A stretch of DNA of 64,000 bases. Origin: Sebaldella termitidis ATCC 33386. Lineage in GTDB: Bacteria; Fusobacteriota; Fusobacteriia; Fusobacteriales; Leptotrichiaceae. Location of the stretch: the NCBI RefSeq assembly GCF_000024405.1, contig NC_013517.1, positions 3,193,989 through 3,257,988 of the forward strand, read 5' to 3'. Under the pieces are notes generated by a model, which was not told where the DNA came from, searched no databases, and was given only the letters and a program-made list of their open reading frames with translations. Position numbers and translations under genes: made by a program. The first letter of the stretch is position 1. Every line of letters starts with the position of its first letter. Shown piece after piece: positions 14,255 to 29,193 of the stretch.

Positions 14255-15328
14255 CTATAAATATCTGAAAGGTATTTTCAGCCTTTGTGACACTCTTGAG
14301 ATATTGGCCGCTTCTTCAGCATTTTCTATATTTTTATTTATATATATTACTTCTTTTACATTGATATTATTTCTGTGGAGCACATCTATAGTCAGGTAAA
14401 CATGATTAAGAATCCCTTCACGATTTTCTGCCACTACTATAACCTCTGATTCTTTTCTGTACTCAATCATAAGATTCAGTAGGTTATACTCCTCTTTAAG
14501 CGGATAGAGAATCCCGCCTATCACCCTTATTACAATTACATCATGATTCTGCGTAGCTTCTTTTATATCTCTTCTGAGCTGTGCAAGATCAAGAACATCT
14601 TCCACATTATTAATTTTTAATATTTTCATAGACTGTTTGTTTTTATTTTCAAAGATATATTCATTTTCTGCATGCTCTTTTCCTACATTTATGTCTGTTC
14701 CCACTACAAAATATATTTTTGTTTCTTTTTTATCCCTGTATTTCACTATATGATGTCTTCTGCATCTGGCTTCATAACTTTCTGTTGTCCCCACAAAAAG
14801 AACAGGATCATCATAATACGCCGGCTCGCCGTTAATGATTCTCTGTGTTACATAAGCAGGATTTCCGCATACTGTACATATTGCATGAAATTTATCCACA
14901 TAGTCGGCAGTTGCCATTAGTCTGGGCATAGGCTCATAAGGCTCCCCCCGGAAGTTCATATCAAGACCTGCTACAACAACTCTTTTTCCGAGCTTTACAC
15001 ATTTTTCACAAAATGCTACCACATCTTCTCCGAAAAACTGTGCTTCATCTATTCCTATCACCTGAATATCAGGATTATTCTCCAGATATTCCTCCATTAC
15101 ACTTACATCCTTTGCAAGTATTGCTTCTATTTTGTTCTGGCTGTGTGAAACTATATTTACATCATCGCCTTCATACCTTTTATCTATAGCAGGCTTGAAC
15201 ACAGCTGTCTTTTGTTTTGCATATTTTGCCCTTCTCAGTCTTCTTATTAATTCTTCACTTTTACCTGAAAACATACTGCCTGTAACTACTTCCAAAATAC
15301 CACTGTTATTACTCAAATATAAATTCAC
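14255..15328 (-). CDS. tdk: Thymidine kinase fused to a dethiobiotin-synthetase-like domain
   Basis: 357 residues, GTG start with GGAGGG. Residues 1-200 are a full type II thymidine kinase: P-loop GSMFSGKS (17-24), IDEAQFF (93-99), the lid and zinc site CTVCG with a later C..H pair, and YEARCRRHH. Residues about 203-357 are extra. They read FVVGTDINVGK, VIVIRVIGGILYPL and VIVVAENREGILNHVYLT, which follow the order of BioD (dethiobiotin synthetase) motifs. The P-loop there has lost its final K-T/S, so ATP binding is doubtful. Ordinary thymidine kinases end near residue 200. The role of the tail is unknown. Confidence 0.88.
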   Translation of the reverse strand: MNLYLSNNSGILEVVTGSMFSGKSEELIRRLRRAKYAKQKTAVFKPAIDKRYEGDDVNIVSHSQNKIEAILAKDVSVMEEYLENNPDIQVIGIDEAQFFGEDVVAFCEKCVKLGKRVVVAGLDMNFRGEPYEPMPRLMATADYVDKFHAICTVCGNPAYVTQRIINGEPAYYDDPVLFVGTTESYEARCRRHHIVKYRDKKETKIYFVVGTDINVGKEHAENEYIFENKNKQSMKILKINNVEDVLDLAQLRRDIKEATQNHDVIVIRVIGGILYPLKEEYNLLNLMIEYRKESEVIVVAENREGILNHVYLTIDVLHRNNINVKEVIYINKNIENAEEAANISRVSQRLKIPFRYL

Positions 15329-21695: not shown

Positions 21696-22640
21696 TTACA
21701 TCATTGCCAAATATGCAGCTCCGAGTATTCCCGCATCATTCCCCAGTTCTGCCTGAACTATTTTCAGTCCCTCTAATGCTGATGGAAGCGCGTATTTTTT
21801 TAAGCTTTCTTTTACCCTGTCAATCAGGAAATCTCCGGCCAGACTAACGCCCCCGCCTAAAACAACTATTTCAGGATCAAGAGTATTCAAAAGATTGCTG
21901 ATTCCCATTGCCAGATATTCTGCTTCATAATCTACTATATCCACGGAAAATTTATCCCCTGCTTTTGCTGCATCAAATACATCCTTTGCTTCCAGCTCTC
22001 TTCCCTTTGTCATTTCATACAGCTGATTTTTCTTATTTACAATAAGTCTTCCCTGTGCTTCTCTTATAAGTCCGGTAGCTGATGCATAGGCTTCCCAGCA
22101 TCCCTTCTGTCCGCATCCGCAGAGCTTGCCGTCTCTTACCAGCTTCGTATGCCCTATTTCTCCTCCTGTACCGTTTTTTCCCGAAACAAGCTGTCCGTTT
22201 AGAATTATTCCCCCGCCTATTCCTGTTCCTATCGCTATCCCAAGAACATTGCTGTGTCCTTTTCCTGCACCTTTCCACATTTCACCAAGGGTTATTACAT
22301 TTACATCATTATCCGCTCTTACTTTCAATCCAATTCTCTTTTCAAATTCTTCTGCCAGATTAAGATTTTCAGGCCATGGAAAATTAGCAAAGAATTTCAC
22401 TATTCTGGTTTGCACAACAGGACCCGGAACTCCTATTCCCACTCCTCCTACTTTATCCAGCGTTATTTCATATTCTTTCAGGTTTTCTTTCAAAATATCC
22501 GCTATTCTGTTCAGTGATATTTCATATCCGTCTATTGATTCTGTTTTTATTGTTGTAGTAAATATTTTATTTCCCTCTTTGTCCACCACTCCTATTTTCG
22601 TATTTGTTCCGCCCAGGTCTATTCCTACATAATAATCCAT
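21696..22640 (-). CDS. glcK: ROK-family glucokinase-like sugar kinase
   Basis: 314 residues. The ATG at 22640 is 9 bp from AGGAGG; a GTG 6 bp upstream is too close. It phosphorylates glucose or a related sugar with ATP. YVGIDLGGTNTKIGVVD is the ATP phosphate loop, GVGVPGPV and ADNDVN hold the catalytic Asp, EIGHTKL binds sugar, and CGCGQKGCWEAYASATGL is the ROK zinc motif. It has no DNA-binding domain, so it is a kinase and not a ROK repressor. It is only 5 bp after the CheW-like gene, which is an unusual partner. Confidence 0.9.
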   Translation of the reverse strand: MDYYVGIDLGGTNTKIGVVDKEGNKIFTTTIKTESIDGYEISLNRIADILKENLKEYEITLDKVGGVGIGVPGPVVQTRIVKFFANFPWPENLNLAEEFEKRIGLKVRADNDVNVITLGEMWKGAGKGHSNVLGIAIGTGIGGGIILNGQLVSGKNGTGGEIGHTKLVRDGKLCGCGQKGCWEAYASATGLIREAQGRLIVNKKNQLYEMTKGRELEAKDVFDAAKAGDKFSVDIVDYEAEYLAMGISNLLNTLDPEIVVLGGGVSLAGDFLIDRVKESLKKYALPSALEGLKIVQAELGNDAGILGAAYLAMM

Positions 22641-22645
22641 AAACA

Positions 22646-23026
22646 CTATCCTCCTATAAATTCTTCTAAATTAATTAATTTTACCACTCTTCCATCTATG
22701 TAAAAATCTTTTGCTGTTTCTTCTGTCATTTCCATATTTTCGAATTCATAAATATCAAAAACATTTTTTACAAATATTGAAAACTCATTTGTCCTGTATC
22801 TTAATATAAGAGCAGCATTAGCCTCGTTGTTTCCCGGCTTTTCACCACCATAACCTGCCACGGGAATAAATCTGTTATCAAAGTGTATTACACCCGGGTA
22901 ATCTTTTCCCAAAGCGGGAAGCTCGTAAAATTTGGCATTATTTTTTATTTTCAATACATATTTCAACTCTATTCCGTATAATTCCTCCCCAGCTTCAAAT
23001 ACCAGATATTTTTTTACCAGCTTCAT
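22646..23026 (-). CDS. CheW-like coupling protein
   Basis: 126 residues, ATG overlapping the stop of the chemoreceptor gene (TAATG), with GAGGGG upstream. It is a short CheW domain: KKYLVFEAGEELYGIELKYVLKI, then YPGVIHFDNRFIPVAGYG, ALILRYRTNEFSIFVKNVFDIYEFE and VVKLINLEEFIGG. CheW bridges receptors and CheA in the array. It is smaller than the usual 150-160 residues. It lies between the receptor genes and the sugar kinase gene. Confidence 0.85.
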   Translation of the reverse strand: MKLVKKYLVFEAGEELYGIELKYVLKIKNNAKFYELPALGKDYPGVIHFDNRFIPVAGYGGEKPGNNEANAALILRYRTNEFSIFVKNVFDIYEFENMEMTEETAKDFYIDGRVVKLINLEEFIGG

Positions 23027-24798
23027 TATCCCCTCTTTTCCAGAGAATCGTTTATTTTTTCTATCTCTCTAAAAAGTATGTTTAGTTCGCTTATCAGATT
23101 TATGTTACCTGCGAGTCTTTCCTTGGTTCCAAAAATCATTTCCTCCAGTTCGCTGAAAGCTTTATTCAGTTCGTTTTCTTCTATATTCTCCAGATTTACA
23201 TTCTCATAAAGAAATTTTACATTTTTATCGATTTTTTTTATTTCATCCTGAAGCTTATTTATTTTTGTTATTGTCAGATCCATTACCTGATTGCTCTTGG
23301 CGATTCTTTCTATTACATTATGGCTTATTTCCCTTGCCTTATTTGATATATCCAAAATCAGCACAGACAGATTTCTTATTTCTTCTGCTATTACCTGATA
23401 GCTTTCTCCGTATTCAGCAGCCCTTTCTGCTTCTTTTCTTGCATTAAGAGATAAAAGATTAGTCCTGTCTGAGATCATGTTTATATTATCTATCATCTCT
23501 TCTATACTTACACTGCTGTCACTCAGCTTATGAAAACTTCTTCTGAGACTTTCTGTCATAAGTGTAATGTTTTTATTTTCCTTTACTATATGCTCGCATT
23601 CCTTTATGAGCTTTTCCAGCTCATCAGAGTTTGTTTCGGAAAGATTAATGATTTTTCTTACTTCCTCTTTTATAAGAAGCATTTTATTTTGCTCTTCACT
23701 GAGAATTTTATAATTTAAGGCCTGACTTTTATTTAGTTCATAGGTTTTTTCATGAATTTCCTTTATATTCCCGGCTGTTATTCTTACTTTATTATGTATT
23801 TTATCTGAAAAGCTATTGAATTTCTTCTTTATATCCTCAGGCTCATCATATTCTCCAATGAGTTCCGAGCTCTTATCCAGACTTATTACCCTGTTTATTC
23901 CCTGTCTGAGCTTATACACCAGTCTGAAAACAGACTTATAGAAAAAGAAGAAAATAATCCCGAAAACAAGAACAGAAACAATTATACATAATATTAAAGA
24001 TAAAAATATATCTGAATACAGATTTTTATAAAATGATAATCTGGAATCTTCCATAATTATATATAGTTTATCCATCTCTAATTTTTTATACATAAATTCT
24101 ATATTTTGCCCGTTTGATCTTACTGTAAAATTTCCCTCTACTTCATCTAAATCATTATTATTCTGCATATGATAAAGACTGTAAAACGAGTTTCCGCTTA
24201 AAGGACTGTTTGTAGCTAGTATCTCTCCGCTGTCTTTTATCAGATAATATCTGCTTTCCGCTTTTGTCCCTGCTGCATTCAGAAAATAATCCTGCGGCAC
24301 TGTAATACCAGCTATTTTTTCTTCAAAATTACTGATTTTTATCTTTTTCACAAAAGTAATCATATATTTATTTGAGGCCTTATCCAAATACGGATTTGAA
24401 ATAAAAAATTCAAAAGACTCGTTCTTTATTTCAGAGATTAGTTTTTTCAGCTCAACACTGTCTGTATTATCTGTCAGCTCCGTATTATTATAAGAATCGA
24501 TATAAAATATATGTTCGTATTCATTATTCAGATTTTTCATAAAATTTATTTTTTCATTTATCGTTTCTGGACTGTCCCCGGCTTTTATACTTCCGATAAA
24601 ACCTTCCGCATCATTTTCTATACTATTTATTTTTTCGTAATAATTCTCCTGCAGCCTTATAATACTGTCCTCTTTTATCAAGGAATAGTTACTTTTATAT
24701 CTGTTGTAAGTCCCTGAAACAGCCAATGCAAAAAATATCAGCAGAGGAATAAAAAATAATGAAAATACCCAGCTTAGAAGTTTATTTTTCAGTCTCAT
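23026..24798 (-). CDS. Chemoreceptor (methyl-accepting chemotaxis protein-like), divergent
   Basis: 590 residues. One membrane segment is at about 8-28 and another at about 265-288; the roughly 235 residues between are external and look like a Cache-type sensor. The cytoplasmic part is a coiled coil with a receptor tip reading DRTNLLSLNARKEAERAAEYGESYQVIAEEIRNLS, clearly related to the standard tip (NLLALNAAIEAARAGE). The Glu and Arg that contact CheA and CheW are kept. Clear methylation pentapeptides are not evident to me. It overlaps the upstream receptor gene by 4 bp (ATGA). Confidence 0.85.
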   Translation of the reverse strand: MRLKNKLLSWVFSLFFIPLLIFFALAVSGTYNRYKSNYSLIKEDSIIRLQENYYEKINSIENDAEGFIGSIKAGDSPETINEKINFMKNLNNEYEHIFYIDSYNNTELTDNTDSVELKKLISEIKNESFEFFISNPYLDKASNKYMITFVKKIKISNFEEKIAGITVPQDYFLNAAGTKAESRYYLIKDSGEILATNSPLSGNSFYSLYHMQNNNDLDEVEGNFTVRSNGQNIEFMYKKLEMDKLYIIMEDSRLSFYKNLYSDIFLSLILCIIVSVLVFGIIFFFFYKSVFRLVYKLRQGINRVISLDKSSELIGEYDEPEDIKKKFNSFSDKIHNKVRITAGNIKEIHEKTYELNKSQALNYKILSEEQNKMLLIKEEVRKIINLSETNSDELEKLIKECEHIVKENKNITLMTESLRRSFHKLSDSSVSIEEMIDNINMISDRTNLLSLNARKEAERAAEYGESYQVIAEEIRNLSVLILDISNKAREISHNVIERIAKSNQVMDLTITKINKLQDEIKKIDKNVKFLYENVNLENIEENELNKAFSELEEMIFGTKERLAGNINLISELNILFREIEKINDSLEKRG

Positions 24799-26645
24799 TC
24801 TGCCTCACTTTCATCTGAATCTTTTGCCGAATCAAGCTTATATTCCTCTGCGAGTATAATCAAAGCTTTCAGATTTTCTTCCAGTTTTTTTATTTCATAA
24901 ATTTCCTTAGAGTAAGTATCTCTGTTTCCTGCTACTTCATTTCTTAAATCCTCCAGATTTGAAGAAAAGGCAAGGAGATTATCCTTATTTTCCACATATC
25001 TTACTATTTCCCGTTCATGATTTTTTCTAAGACCGGTAAATCTTTCGGTAAATACTGCTATATAATCGGCTATGAGATTCACTGATTTATTCTTTAACTG
25101 AAAATTTATTTTTTCCTGTTTCAAAATAGCCTTTATCTCCTCAGAAAGAAGCTTTATCCTGTTTGCCAGATGTCTTATTTCCTTTGAGCTTTCTTCCAGC
25201 TCCACAGAATTATTCCCTGAGCTGCTGTGCATTTCAATTGTGGAATTCAGCCCGAAGACATTTATCTGAAAGGAAATTTTATTTACTTCATTTATAAGTT
25301 TTTCAATTAAATCCCCGTTTTCCCTCTCTTTTTCAAAATTTTCCCTTAGCAGCTTTATATTTCTGTTTATATCGGAAAACTCATTTTGGATTGCAGTATT
25401 CATTTTATGATTCTCCATTAACAAATTATATACTTTATCAAAGTTTTCCTGATTTCTGTGCAGTATTGTGTTTATTTTCAGTATATCTGACTCCTTATTC
25501 AGATTTTTATTCAAAAGCATACTTGTTTTTTCAAGCAATAAATCATTTGATCTTTTGATATCAAAACAGTTTTCCTTCACTTCATTTACAAAGTCAGTAT
25601 ATGTCTTTAGAACCTTATTGTAATTTTCCTGAAGATAAAACTTGCTTCCGCCGAAATCCATTTCCTTAAGATTTTTTTCACTGATCGAGTATAATGCTCT
25701 GTTCATCTTGGAAACCGGCTTACCAAGAACATTTTTTATTATAAAATATATTAGGATTATTCCTGATATATTTAGCATTACTATCATCCAGATATTATCC
25801 ACGAAAAATTCAATGCTCTGGAGTACAGAAGCATTTTTTTTCATTATAAAAATATTTTTATCATCAAGCTTATAAAATGAATAAAATTCCCTCTTTGTAT
25901 GAAGCGGCGACAGAACTCCTGTTTTCCTGTCAGAAGACTGTATATTTTTTATCATTGCCAGAAGTGCATTATTCTCTACAGTTCTTATATTATTTAGTTT
26001 AATATCCTGATTATTGGTAATAAAAATTTTATTTTCCGGATTGATAAAATAATACTCGCCGTCTGCTTCATCCCTCTTAATGATCTCTTCAAGTCTGCCG
26101 TAATCCAGAGCTAATACCAAAAGTCCCTTTATATTCTCCTCACTGTCAATATTCATGTAATATAAAGCGACATTGGTATTCATATCTTTTATGTATACAG
26201 GCATTATCCAGCCCGAAGTATTCCGGCTGCCTTCAGCCTTAGTCCTGAATTCGTTCATATCATTTTCCGATAAAATCCCAGCCGGACTTGTCCCGCCGGT
26301 AACCTCACTGCCATTAATATCAAGCAGATAATATCCGCCTGTAATACCCGGAGTAAGCATAAAATTCTGCAGCTCTTTATCGGCATTCATCTTAATCTGT
26401 TCCGAGGCTGTGGAAGCTTCCTCGTTTTTCAGACCTGCTGCAAAATTATTCCCCAGTATCTCCACTGTTCCTAGATTACGTTCCAGTTCACCCCCAAGGA
26501 CAGTACTGTTATATTTTAATCTTTCCTGCATCTCCTTTATATATATCTCATTCCGGTCTCTGGTATTCAGATATGTAATAGCCAGTTCCATTATTATAAT
26601 TACCAGCGTTATATAAAAAAAGAGCTTAAAAGTTACTTTTTTCAA
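24795..26645 (-). CDS. Second, strongly degenerate chemoreceptor-like protein
   Basis: 616 residues; TTG start 9 bp after GGAGG. Membrane segments are at about 7-25 and 280-300, with an external domain (GGYYLLDINGSEVTGGTS, GLLVLALDYGRLEEII) of the Cache type. The cytoplasmic part is a long coiled coil. The tip position reads NVFGLNSTIEMHSSSGNNS, then EESSKEIRHLANRI: the Asn and Glu remain, but the Arg is replaced and the AAR block is gone. It probably pairs with the neighbouring receptor but may not activate a kinase. Confidence 0.78.
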   Translation of the reverse strand: MKKVTFKLFFYITLVIIIMELAITYLNTRDRNEIYIKEMQERLKYNSTVLGGELERNLGTVEILGNNFAAGLKNEEASTASEQIKMNADKELQNFMLTPGITGGYYLLDINGSEVTGGTSPAGILSENDMNEFRTKAEGSRNTSGWIMPVYIKDMNTNVALYYMNIDSEENIKGLLVLALDYGRLEEIIKRDEADGEYYFINPENKIFITNNQDIKLNNIRTVENNALLAMIKNIQSSDRKTGVLSPLHTKREFYSFYKLDDKNIFIMKKNASVLQSIEFFVDNIWMIVMLNISGIILIYFIIKNVLGKPVSKMNRALYSISEKNLKEMDFGGSKFYLQENYNKVLKTYTDFVNEVKENCFDIKRSNDLLLEKTSMLLNKNLNKESDILKINTILHRNQENFDKVYNLLMENHKMNTAIQNEFSDINRNIKLLRENFEKERENGDLIEKLINEVNKISFQINVFGLNSTIEMHSSSGNNSVELEESSKEIRHLANRIKLLSEEIKAILKQEKINFQLKNKSVNLIADYIAVFTERFTGLRKNHEREIVRYVENKDNLLAFSSNLEDLRNEVAGNRDTYSKEIYEIKKLEENLKALIILAEEYKLDSAKDSDESEAE

Positions 26646-26647
26646 AG

Positions 26648-27709
26648 CTAATATCCTCCATATTCTATATTATAATTCTCCTTAAGATATTCCAGAAACT
26701 GCAGACCGTAAAAATCATGCTTTCCCTTATAAAGAATATCTTTTACTTCCTTGTCTGATATAATTTCGCTTATTCTTGCCTTTATCTTGTTCAGATTCTC
26801 TTTTTTCATATTTAATAATATCAGTATTCTTGTTTCCCTCTCGTTAAATCTCTTAAAAGTGACCAGTTCCAGATTTTCAAAGCTTTTATTAAATAATGTA
26901 TCCGAAATTTTTACCTCATCATTTTCCAGAATATAACAATCTACAAGATTATAGTAACATGCATTATCCAGTATCTTAAAATTATCAGTTATCTCTTCGG
27001 GAACCATATTTTGTTTTTCTTTATAATAAAACTTTATATTATACACACTTTCAAATTCATCTATATTAATCACTTTTATTTCTTTTACAGCCTCATCCTT
27101 ATATTTCTTAATTATTTCCTCAAAATCTCCCATATCTTTATTCAATTTAAAATCCAGTATAAAATAATCGTACTCTTCGTTTGAAAGATCCTGCGGAGTA
27201 TAATTATAAGGATTGCCGTATTGCTTTAAGAAATCCAGCAGAATGTTTCTTGTGAGAAAAAATAAAGGTTTTGTTCTGTCCAGCTTTATTTTTATATAAT
27301 AATATCTTTTATTCTCACTTAATTTGCTGACAGCTTCATCAAAAAAATCAATATGCTCGTCTAATTTCTCATACTCTTTTATATGCACGGTTTCCAGAGG
27401 CATGTTATTTTTTTCCAAAGCCTGAAAGGCTCTTAATATATCAGTAAGACAATTTAATAAATCATATTTATACTCATAAAAAAGATATTTATCATTCTCT
27501 ATTATCTGAAAAATTTTTCTTAACAGTGCTGACAAAGCTGAAATCTTTTTATCTTTCATAAGAAAACTGCTGTTCTCTATTCTGTTAATCATTATCACAT
27601 CTTCCCTGAAATCTGCTTCATCTGCCTGATCTATCTTCACTATTTTCTTTATCAACTCTTCCACTCTGAGTCTGTTTTTCTGATAATAATCCTGAATTTT
27701 TTTATCCAT
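26648..27709 (-). CDS. CheA N-terminal-half-like protein (P1 without phospho-His plus linker domain)
   Basis: 353 residues from the ATG at 27709, where GGGAAG precedes it; an ATG 12 bp upstream has no clear site. Residues about 1-110 are all helix and follow the P1 (HPt) pattern of CheA: INRIENSSFLMKDKKISALSALLRKI stands where FRxxHTxKGxxxxL would be, but no His is present. Residues about 130-220 (YIKIKLDRTKPLFFLTRNILLDFLKQYG, then YFILDFKLN) match the domain after P1 in many CheA proteins (RPxPxxxxxGxDPLxLLxEL). There is no kinase core. The rest (220-353) is not recognised. The kinase-core gene lies just upstream. Confidence 0.7.
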   Translation of the reverse strand: MDKKIQDYYQKNRLRVEELIKKIVKIDQADEADFREDVIMINRIENSSFLMKDKKISALSALLRKIFQIIENDKYLFYEYKYDLLNCLTDILRAFQALEKNNMPLETVHIKEYEKLDEHIDFFDEAVSKLSENKRYYYIKIKLDRTKPLFFLTRNILLDFLKQYGNPYNYTPQDLSNEEYDYFILDFKLNKDMGDFEEIIKKYKDEAVKEIKVINIDEFESVYNIKFYYKEKQNMVPEEITDNFKILDNACYYNLVDCYILENDEVKISDTLFNKSFENLELVTFKRFNERETRILILLNMKKENLNKIKARISEIISDKEVKDILYKGKHDFYGLQFLEYLKENYNIEYGGY

Positions 27710-27747
27710 AATTCTTCCCATCCCGAACTTTTATTTTCCCGAAAAAC

Positions 27748-29193
27748 TTAATTTCCAAGAAAATCTCTGTTTTTACTTATATTTTTCATATCCAGTACAA
27801 GTGCTATTTCCCCGTTTTTCAATATTGAGGCACCTAAAAATGCCCTGTAATCTTTATTATCCACATTTATCTTCTGAGGCACCACCTCTTCCAGACCGCC
27901 TATATAATCTGCAAGAAATATACATTTCTCCCCGCTTATATTTAATATAATTCCATATCCGGATTTTCCGCAGTTCTCTTTTTTAAATTTTTCCGGAACC
28001 TGTAAAACAAGATATTCCTCATTTTCAAACATATAATATGTATAATCGGAAATATGGGAAAAATTTATTTTAGCTGTTTTTATTGTTTTTTCCACCAGAC
28101 TAAACGGTATGGCATAATTAACATTTCCTGCTTTTATCAGCAGAGTTTCTGTCAGTATGAATTTCAGCGGTATTCTTGCTGTAATCAGAGTATACTGTGT
28201 TTTTTTGCTTTCTATCTTTATCTGTCCGCCAAGTTCTTCCACAGTATTATAAAAATTAGACAAAGTCAGATCTCTTTCTTTATTTTCTTCTTTTTTATTT
28301 GTAAGTGACATCTCGGGCTTAAATACCAGATTTAGTATCTCTTCCTTTGTATATTTTTTATTTATATCTACCATTCCTGCTTTTTCGGCACGCTGAAATA
28401 TTTCCATATCATCTATTCCCTGACCGTCATCCAGCATTTCGATTACAATCTCGCCGAATTCCTGCTTAAAAGTCAAAGCCAGCTGTCCTTTTTTATTTTT
28501 TTCGTAAAGAAGCCTTTCATCCTGAGACTCTATTCCGTATATAACAGAATTTACAAATACATTTATGATATGATCCTTTATTTTGTAAAAAATATATCTG
28601 TCAAAATTAATTTTCAGTCCTCTTACAATGAAGTCTATGTCTTTATTAATGATTTTGGCATAATCATATATTATCTTCTCTATTTTTTTTACTTCTTCTT
28701 TTAAATTTACCACTCTTGAATTAAGAATTACCTTATTTATGCTTTCCCGGTATTTCCCTATTTTTTCTACAAGATCTTTATATTCATCCTGCTTTTCATA
28801 GTCAATATATTTTTGAAATCCTTCAAGTCCTCTCTGAATGGATATGATTCCGGCACTTTGGGCCAGAATGCTGTTCAGTCTTGATATTTTTAATTCCACA
28901 TAGTCATTATCTTCTGCACTGTCATCAAGATAGGTAATATTATGCTTCTGAACAAATTTATATTTATTCAGTATTTTTTCCAGCCTGCGGGTATCATTCA
29001 GAAATAGTCCGTAGCTGAGCTTCATATTTATTTTTTCAGGTTCAAAATTATCAAATATACTGTCTTCAAGAAATATATATTTTTTATATCCGGGCATAAA
29101 CTGCTCCTCTATTTCCCGTTCAAGAAGCTCATATCTGTCAATATCATCCGAATCCCTGAAATATATATCAAGAATACTCTCTTTATTTTCCAT
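27748..29193 (-). CDS. CheA P3-P4-P5-like protein with damaged ATP-binding boxes
   Basis: 481 residues, ATG with GGTG. Residues about 98-205 match the P3 dimerisation helices, 205-345 the HATPase (P4) and 350-475 the CheW-like P5 domain (YAIPFSLVEKTIKT, FLADYIGGLEEVVPQKI, LGASILKNGEIALVLDM). In P4, Asn215 of the N box (VNSVIYGIE) and the G1 box DDGQGID (255-261) remain. The F box reads FKPEMS, and the G2 box, usually GRGVGLD, reads ERDLTLS (306-312). ATP turnover is doubtful while array docking looks intact. The first 95 residues are not recognised. It is the first gene of the operon. Confidence 0.8.
   Translation of the reverse strand: MENKESILDIYFRDSDDIDRYELLEREIEEQFMPGYKKYIFLEDSIFDNFEPEKINMKLSYGLFLNDTRRLEKILNKYKFVQKHNITYLDDSAEDNDYVELKISRLNSILAQSAGIISIQRGLEGFQKYIDYEKQDEYKDLVEKIGKYRESINKVILNSRVVNLKEEVKKIEKIIYDYAKIINKDIDFIVRGLKINFDRYIFYKIKDHIINVFVNSVIYGIESQDERLLYEKNKKGQLALTFKQEFGEIVIEMLDDGQGIDDMEIFQRAEKAGMVDINKKYTKEEILNLVFKPEMSLTNKKEENKERDLTLSNFYNTVEELGGQIKIESKKTQYTLITARIPLKFILTETLLIKAGNVNYAIPFSLVEKTIKTAKINFSHISDYTYYMFENEEYLVLQVPEKFKKENCGKSGYGIILNISGEKCIFLADYIGGLEEVVPQKINVDNKDYRAFLGASILKNGEIALVLDMKNISKNRDFLGN

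Follow-up and report, generated by a model that had tools for sequence, protein, structure and literature searches.

The operon and its two CheA-related genes

The window analysed here is a stretch of 64,000 nucleotides from the main contig (4,418,842 bp) of the 4,486,650 bp genome of Sebaldella termitidis, a nonmotile fusobacterium (PMC3035275). Its minus strand carries a tight operon headed by two intact open reading frames, at 27748-29193 (P0002, 481 amino acids; hereafter CheAs) and 26648-27709 (P0001, 353 amino acids; hereafter the companion), which are separated by 38 bases; an additional ATG for the companion lies at 27721. The kinase-type gene is transcribed first and the other second, as the initial annotation had read them. 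Downstream of the companion, on the same strand and spaced no more than a few bases apart, are two genes for receptor-like proteins (24795-26645 and 23026-24798), a cheW gene (22646-23026) and, at the 3' end of the operon, a ROK-family glucokinase gene (21696-22646; TIGR00744 above cut-off). The MCP signalling domain is far weaker in the first receptor-like protein (MCPsignal E 6.6e-5, below cut-off) than in the second (E 6.4e-16), and the two receptors may therefore not be equivalent. A promoter scan gave sites no more frequent than in shuffled sequence. Elsewhere in the window, a thymidine-kinase-like open reading frame at 14255-15328 (357 amino acids) has, by eye from its translation, some 150 extra residues at its C-terminus.

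It is clear that P0002 is related to CheA. Residues 101-471 match Thermotoga maritima CheA chains in a sequence search (E 1e-40), a Foldseek search with its structure model, of moderate overall confidence (pLDDT 67.6), returned CheA (1b3q, E 1.1e-25), and its CheW domain scores above the Pfam cut-off with HATPase_c slightly under. The P3 dimerisation, P4 kinase and P5 CheW-like domains are all present, which upholds their initial assignment to this gene. There is no P1 (Hpt) domain in the protein. Instead, residues 1-90 (28924-29193, minus strand) have the predicted order strand-helix-strand-strand-helix-strand of a ferredoxin-like domain and align in hhalign to the P2 region of full-length CheA; the P0002 family as a whole gives a single alignment to full-length Fusobacteriota CheA, which runs from P2 through to the C-terminal end (E 4.4e-43). 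Therefore CheAs consists of a P2-like domain followed by P3, P4 and P5, without P1.

As a single sequence the companion found no match in Pfam, NCBIfam or PDB sequences, and hhalign matched it at best weakly to full-length CheA or to P0002. A profile of 14 homologues was then compared with a combined profile of CheA N-termini and stand-alone P1-P2 proteins, and only with this combined target did a match emerge: residues 11-183 align collinearly with P1-P2 (E 4.7e-4, score 35.2, against 11.1 +/- 1.9 with a maximum of 19.1 for 100 column shuffles and 12.2 for the reversed profile). AlphaFold2 models the protein (pLDDT 79.7) as a bundle of five helices and then two ferredoxin-like domains. In Foldseek this model matched nothing at E < 1e-3; ACT- and RRM-type ferredoxin folds were among the matches listed, and no Hpt domain was among the best 50 of them. 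The profile match and the five-helix bundle together identify a P1-like domain despite the lack of a Pfam Hpt match, and the proposal that this protein is P1-like with following linker domains, which the initial annotation had staked on such a profile comparison, survives it. The same annotation had taken the two proteins for CheA halves, and here it does not hold: since both contain P2-like domains, the one does not complement the other as the two parts of a split CheA would.

Catalytic motifs and the phospho-histidine position

Residues of the N-box, G1 and G2 motifs of CheA serve ATP binding and phosphotransfer. An intact N-box reads HxxxNxxDHGIE; in CheAs the corresponding stretch, NVFVNSVIYGIE (residues 211-222, 28528-28563, minus strand), has kept the Asn and has lost the His and the later Asp-His. 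The G1 box, DDGQGID (residues 255-261, 28411-28431, minus strand), is retained in the window and altered or deleted in other genera. At the position of G2, where active CheA has SGRGVGxDxV, the protein reads KERDLTLSNF (residues 305-314, 28252-28281, minus strand), so that all the G2 glycines are gone, and the F box is altered as well. The canonical N, G1, F and G2 motifs are thus not intact in P0002; they are intact in the comparison set of full-length Fusobacteriota CheA. Among the CheAs proteins G2 is lost in 13 of 13 and G1 is altered or deleted in nine of the 13: four genomes (G083, G084, G091 and G092) have a deletion of G1 and have lost the N-box Asn too, and G065 and the Streptobacillus group also lack a proper G1. 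With residues of these functions lost, CheAs is predicted to have no kinase activity. The Sebaldella protein still has the N-box Asn and DDGQGID, and nucleotide binding is therefore possible. In a tree the CheAs proteins split from all full-length CheA with 100% bootstrap; the closest relative among the full-length CheA sampled did not resolve.

Loss is just as evident at the other end of the relay. At the position of the phospho-accepting His of P1 the companion has Asn42 (codon at 27584-27586, minus strand), and Asn is found there in 14 of 14 homologues; the surrounding pattern, N-x-hydrophobic-E-[N/T] throughout the family, replaces the H-x-[I/L]-K-G of active P1. Furthermore, the best conserved part of the companion between genera is its first P2-like domain (residues 134-216, 27062-27310, minus strand), with a mean identity of 50% as compared with 31% in the P1-like bundle, which would be the opposite of what is expected from a phosphotransfer protein. 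Judged by these sequences, the pair is derived from CheA and yet fails the catalytic tests of a CheA kinase to which it was put.

In family searches, on which all our genome-wide statements of presence and absence are based, none of the genomes in the window's family, Sebaldella included, gave an Hpt match; of the adaptation enzymes, in the window's own genome, no CheR scored above cut-off and no CheB was found. An orphan CheY-like response regulator of 123 amino acids with the usual acceptor residues is encoded at L062:7986-8357 (minus strand; about G000:C1:2963000), next to a HAD hydrolase gene and far from the che operon, in this genome without a detectable Hpt domain.

Distribution, selection and origin of the gene order

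The full-length P0001 family was found in 14 of 98 Fusobacteriota genomes, all of them in the window's family, where it occurs in six of 11 genera. In all 14 the gene immediately before it, in the same orientation, encodes CheAs (in G090 the contig starts within that gene), so that a P1-type protein and a P3-P5 protein are encoded in one operon wherever both are present. This adjacency persists while the genes flanking the pair vary by genus: Sebaldella has trpS and receptor genes there, G068 has glucokinase, G065 and G092 both have cdsA and glycogen phosphorylase, the Streptobacillus group has cdsA with an RNase PH gene, and Oceanivirga has a Toprim/DUF4093 gene upstream and a valyl-tRNA synthetase-like gene downstream. 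In the pair-bearing genomes of the five genera other than Sebaldella neither MCP nor stand-alone CheW was detectable. The pair is kept across six genera, also where the genome is as small as 1.2-1.8 Mb. Two Sebaldella genomes compared with each other give a dN/dS of 0.05 for each of the two genes; two more closely related genomes give 0.10 for P0001, and comparisons among species of the Streptobacillus group give 0.13-0.19. These are therefore genes under purifying selection and not pseudogenes. A search of viral contigs for relatives found none, and a 208-amino-acid open reading frame in G034 and G037 with a weak match to P0001 was rejected, having a lipoprotein-like N-terminus, only helical similarity and no adjoining che genes.

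Two genomes from families other than the window's have a separate P1-P2 protein in the same place. In G064 (L071) the end of a cheA gene, cut by the contig end, is followed by a 337-amino-acid stand-alone P1-P2 protein, mcp and cheW; this companion has MHSIKG intact (Hpt E 2.8e-11, P2 E 8.4e-6) and matches the full-length CheA profile at E 1.6e-25, so that the stand-alone companion is itself probably derived from the N-terminal part of a CheA. In G045 (L036) a divergent trpS is followed by a complete cheA, a 263-amino-acid protein, two mcp genes, cheW, glgC and glucokinase. The cheA of this operon has intact motifs and a P1 of its own (LHTLKG); the 263-amino-acid protein matches the G064 companion along its length (E 1.9e-4 and 1.2e-3) and, by inspection of the alignment, has Lys at the phospho-His position. 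The Sebaldella operon has the order seen in G045 and G064, with P0001 in the companion slot between cheA and the receptor gene. A C-terminal motif of P0001, DFYGLQFLEYLK (residues 332-343, 26681-26716, minus strand), recurs among 470 open reading frames only in the G064 and G045 companions and is absent from all the full-length CheA examined; those two companions had been inspected before this pattern was picked. Comparisons of P0001 with the G064 and G045 companions alone, including single-sequence comparisons, were marginal or not significant, and the proposed orthology thus combines synteny, a motif chosen after inspection and the combined profile.

Separate P1-P2 proteins are not rare in the phylum, since a stand-alone Hpt and P2 protein of 387 amino acids is also encoded in G063 (L072:6599-7762), a few genes upstream of cheA and adjoining cheR. 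CheA-like proteins of about 400 amino acids with P1 and P3-P4 and apparently without P5 are encoded in G047 (L073:2401-3624) and G046 (L074:7771-8964), each followed by a cheW gene.

The simplest history, and on these alignments and gene orders the most likely, is that P0001 is an old companion and that cheA later lost its own P1. The apparent reversal of the two genes would then be due to P1 loss beside a pre-existing companion, and no rearrangement is needed. The initial argument that a simple frameshift or split of a single cheA cannot explain the order is strengthened by the P1-P2 companion found between cheA and the receptor gene in G064 and G045; of the two origins that it offered in place of a split, these same gene orders favour separate evolution and make rearrangement superfluous.

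A CheA-derived pair, probably without phosphotransfer

The account that we consider probable is that the pair descends from a cheA-companion operon in which P1 was lost and the phosphorelay decayed, and that it has been kept as a complex free of phosphotransfer. The ancestral order would have been cheA, P1-P2 companion, mcp, cheW, glucokinase. Before the pair-bearing Leptotrichiaceae diverged, cheA would have lost the P1 that it carried, leaving the companion, already downstream, as the only P1-P2 protein. The relay would have decayed through replacement of the companion His by Asn and, in the kinase, through loss of the N-box His and of the G2 glycines, with G1 and the N-box Asn also going in other genera, while CheAs and the companion were retained as a complex that works by other means. 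In Sebaldella, P3 would dimerise CheAs and P5 would dock it to CheW and the two receptors; the state of the receptors could then be passed by contact to the conserved P2-like domain of the companion and on to a further partner. In genera without receptors the complex would have to respond to something else. The fact that the pair is conserved even where all receptors have been lost, and with motifs and His gone, suggests a function that does not depend on phosphate transfer.

It is possible that the pair is instead a working bipartite CheA like CheA3/CheA4 of Rhodobacter sphaeroides, CheAs phosphorylating some other residue of the companion in trans and the phosphate passing to a CheY-like regulator. 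The division of domains within one operon is the same, bipartite CheA is documented (PMC10782961, PMC6829392), the Sebaldella P4 has kept the N-box Asn and DDGQGID, and the genome encodes the orphan CheY-like protein with its usual acceptor residues. However, that protein is encoded away from the operon, none of the 14 companions has the acceptor His, the G2 glycines and N-box His are gone, and the pair is still kept in four genomes where G1 is deleted; the absent His and the degenerate motifs argue strongly against transfer from the kinase to a separate P1, and we regard this alternative as unlikely. The initial suggestion that the two proteins work in trans thus stands in part: their adjacency in 14 of 14 genomes supports their acting together in some way, but a companion without acceptor His and a P4 without essential motifs make the roles of kinase and phosphoacceptor improbable. 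A different origin, by tandem duplication of cheA within the Leptotrichiaceae (or by a split with permutation), would make P0001 a genuine piece of CheA rather than a companion of earlier origin, the first copy having lost P1 and the second P3-P5. Reciprocal loss would leave P2-like domains in both proteins, as is seen, and the companion family does resemble CheA N-termini, as the profile match of the G064 protein attests. Nevertheless a separate P1-P2 protein already occupies the same slot in G064 and in G045, where cheA is complete, and the C-terminal motif links P0001 to those companions and to none of the CheA examined; we give this origin a modest chance at best.

The output of the complex could be control of glucose or glycogen metabolism by contact with glucokinase, GlgC or glycogen phosphorylase, a proposal which can hold together with the account preferred above. 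Glucokinase ends the Sebaldella operon and follows the pair in G068, which has no receptors; in G045 and G041 the che genes lead into GlgC and glucokinase genes, and in G047 into a ROK gene; and the next gene after the pair is glycogen phosphorylase in G065 and G092, and in G091 too as judged by position. As glycogen phosphorylase is present in 33 of 33 genomes of the family its co-occurrence is uninformative, and only its position counts. Against this, other housekeeping genes adjoin the pair in Oceanivirga and Streptobacillus, and the glucokinase linkage may be one inherited arrangement. The linkage in several genera is a lead and no more, and an output of this kind seems rather doubtful. 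In other Fusobacteriota (L036:1917-11089, L049:4521-10995 and L052:10395-14901) a chemosensory operon also runs into a GlgC-like nucleotidyltransferase gene, or one of similar size, and a ROK-family kinase gene, an unexpected link of receptors to glycogen genes. Lastly, the nonmotile host (PMC3035275) and the loss of catalytic motifs, receptors and adaptation enzymes might suggest a decaying, functionless remnant of a lost chemotaxis system. With open reading frames intact in every genome, dN/dS of 0.05-0.19, and retention in small genomes across six genera, this is very improbable.

Several known systems are comparable in part. In R. sphaeroides (Cereibacter) CheA3/CheA4, a P3-P4-P5 protein and a P1-bearing protein are likewise encoded in one operon (PMC10782961, PMC6829392), but CheA3 has a phosphorylatable His and its own P5, whereas the Sebaldella companion lacks the His, and CheA4 is an active kinase acting on CheY6, whereas CheAs is without key kinase motifs. 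Another is the bipartite CheA with Hpt as a separate operon gene described by Berry et al. 2023 (PMC10782961), where a P1-less CheA also lies beside a P1-type gene; those are taken as functional two-part kinases, whereas the Sebaldella-type pair is without catalytic residues and most of its carriers are without receptors. Hpt-type domains lacking the phospho-His are retained in CheA with several Hpt domains, ChpA of P. aeruginosa among them (PMC10782961). There, however, they are additional to intact Hpt domains, and the kinase is active. A further likeness is to a repurposed Caulobacter histidine kinase of pseudokinase type, which we take to be DivL. This kinase is not a CheA and has neither a P1-P2 companion nor chemoreceptors; the likeness lies in the use of the fold beyond catalytic output (PMC4211667).

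A 2023 survey took P1, P3, P4 and P5 as core domains, present in all the CheA that it covered, with P1 encoded by its own gene in some of them (PMC10782961). In the open-access literature searched there was no description of a pair with both phosphotransfer ends gone that outlives its receptors. Bipartite CheA is already known, and it is a non-catalytic, receptor-independent one that appears to be new. We put at about even the chances that CheA has here become a two-protein complex with a conserved cellular function and with no kinase activity, no phosphohistidine and, mostly, no chemoreceptors. CheA is treated as defined by phosphotransfer; decay of both phosphotransfer ends under purifying selection, even in the absence of receptors, would show that the CheA scaffold can be used beyond phosphate. 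Since relatives stand at different stages, with a companion whose His is intact, an intact CheA beside a His-less companion, and a degenerate pair with or without receptors, the path from kinase to pseudokinase in these bacteria is open to test.
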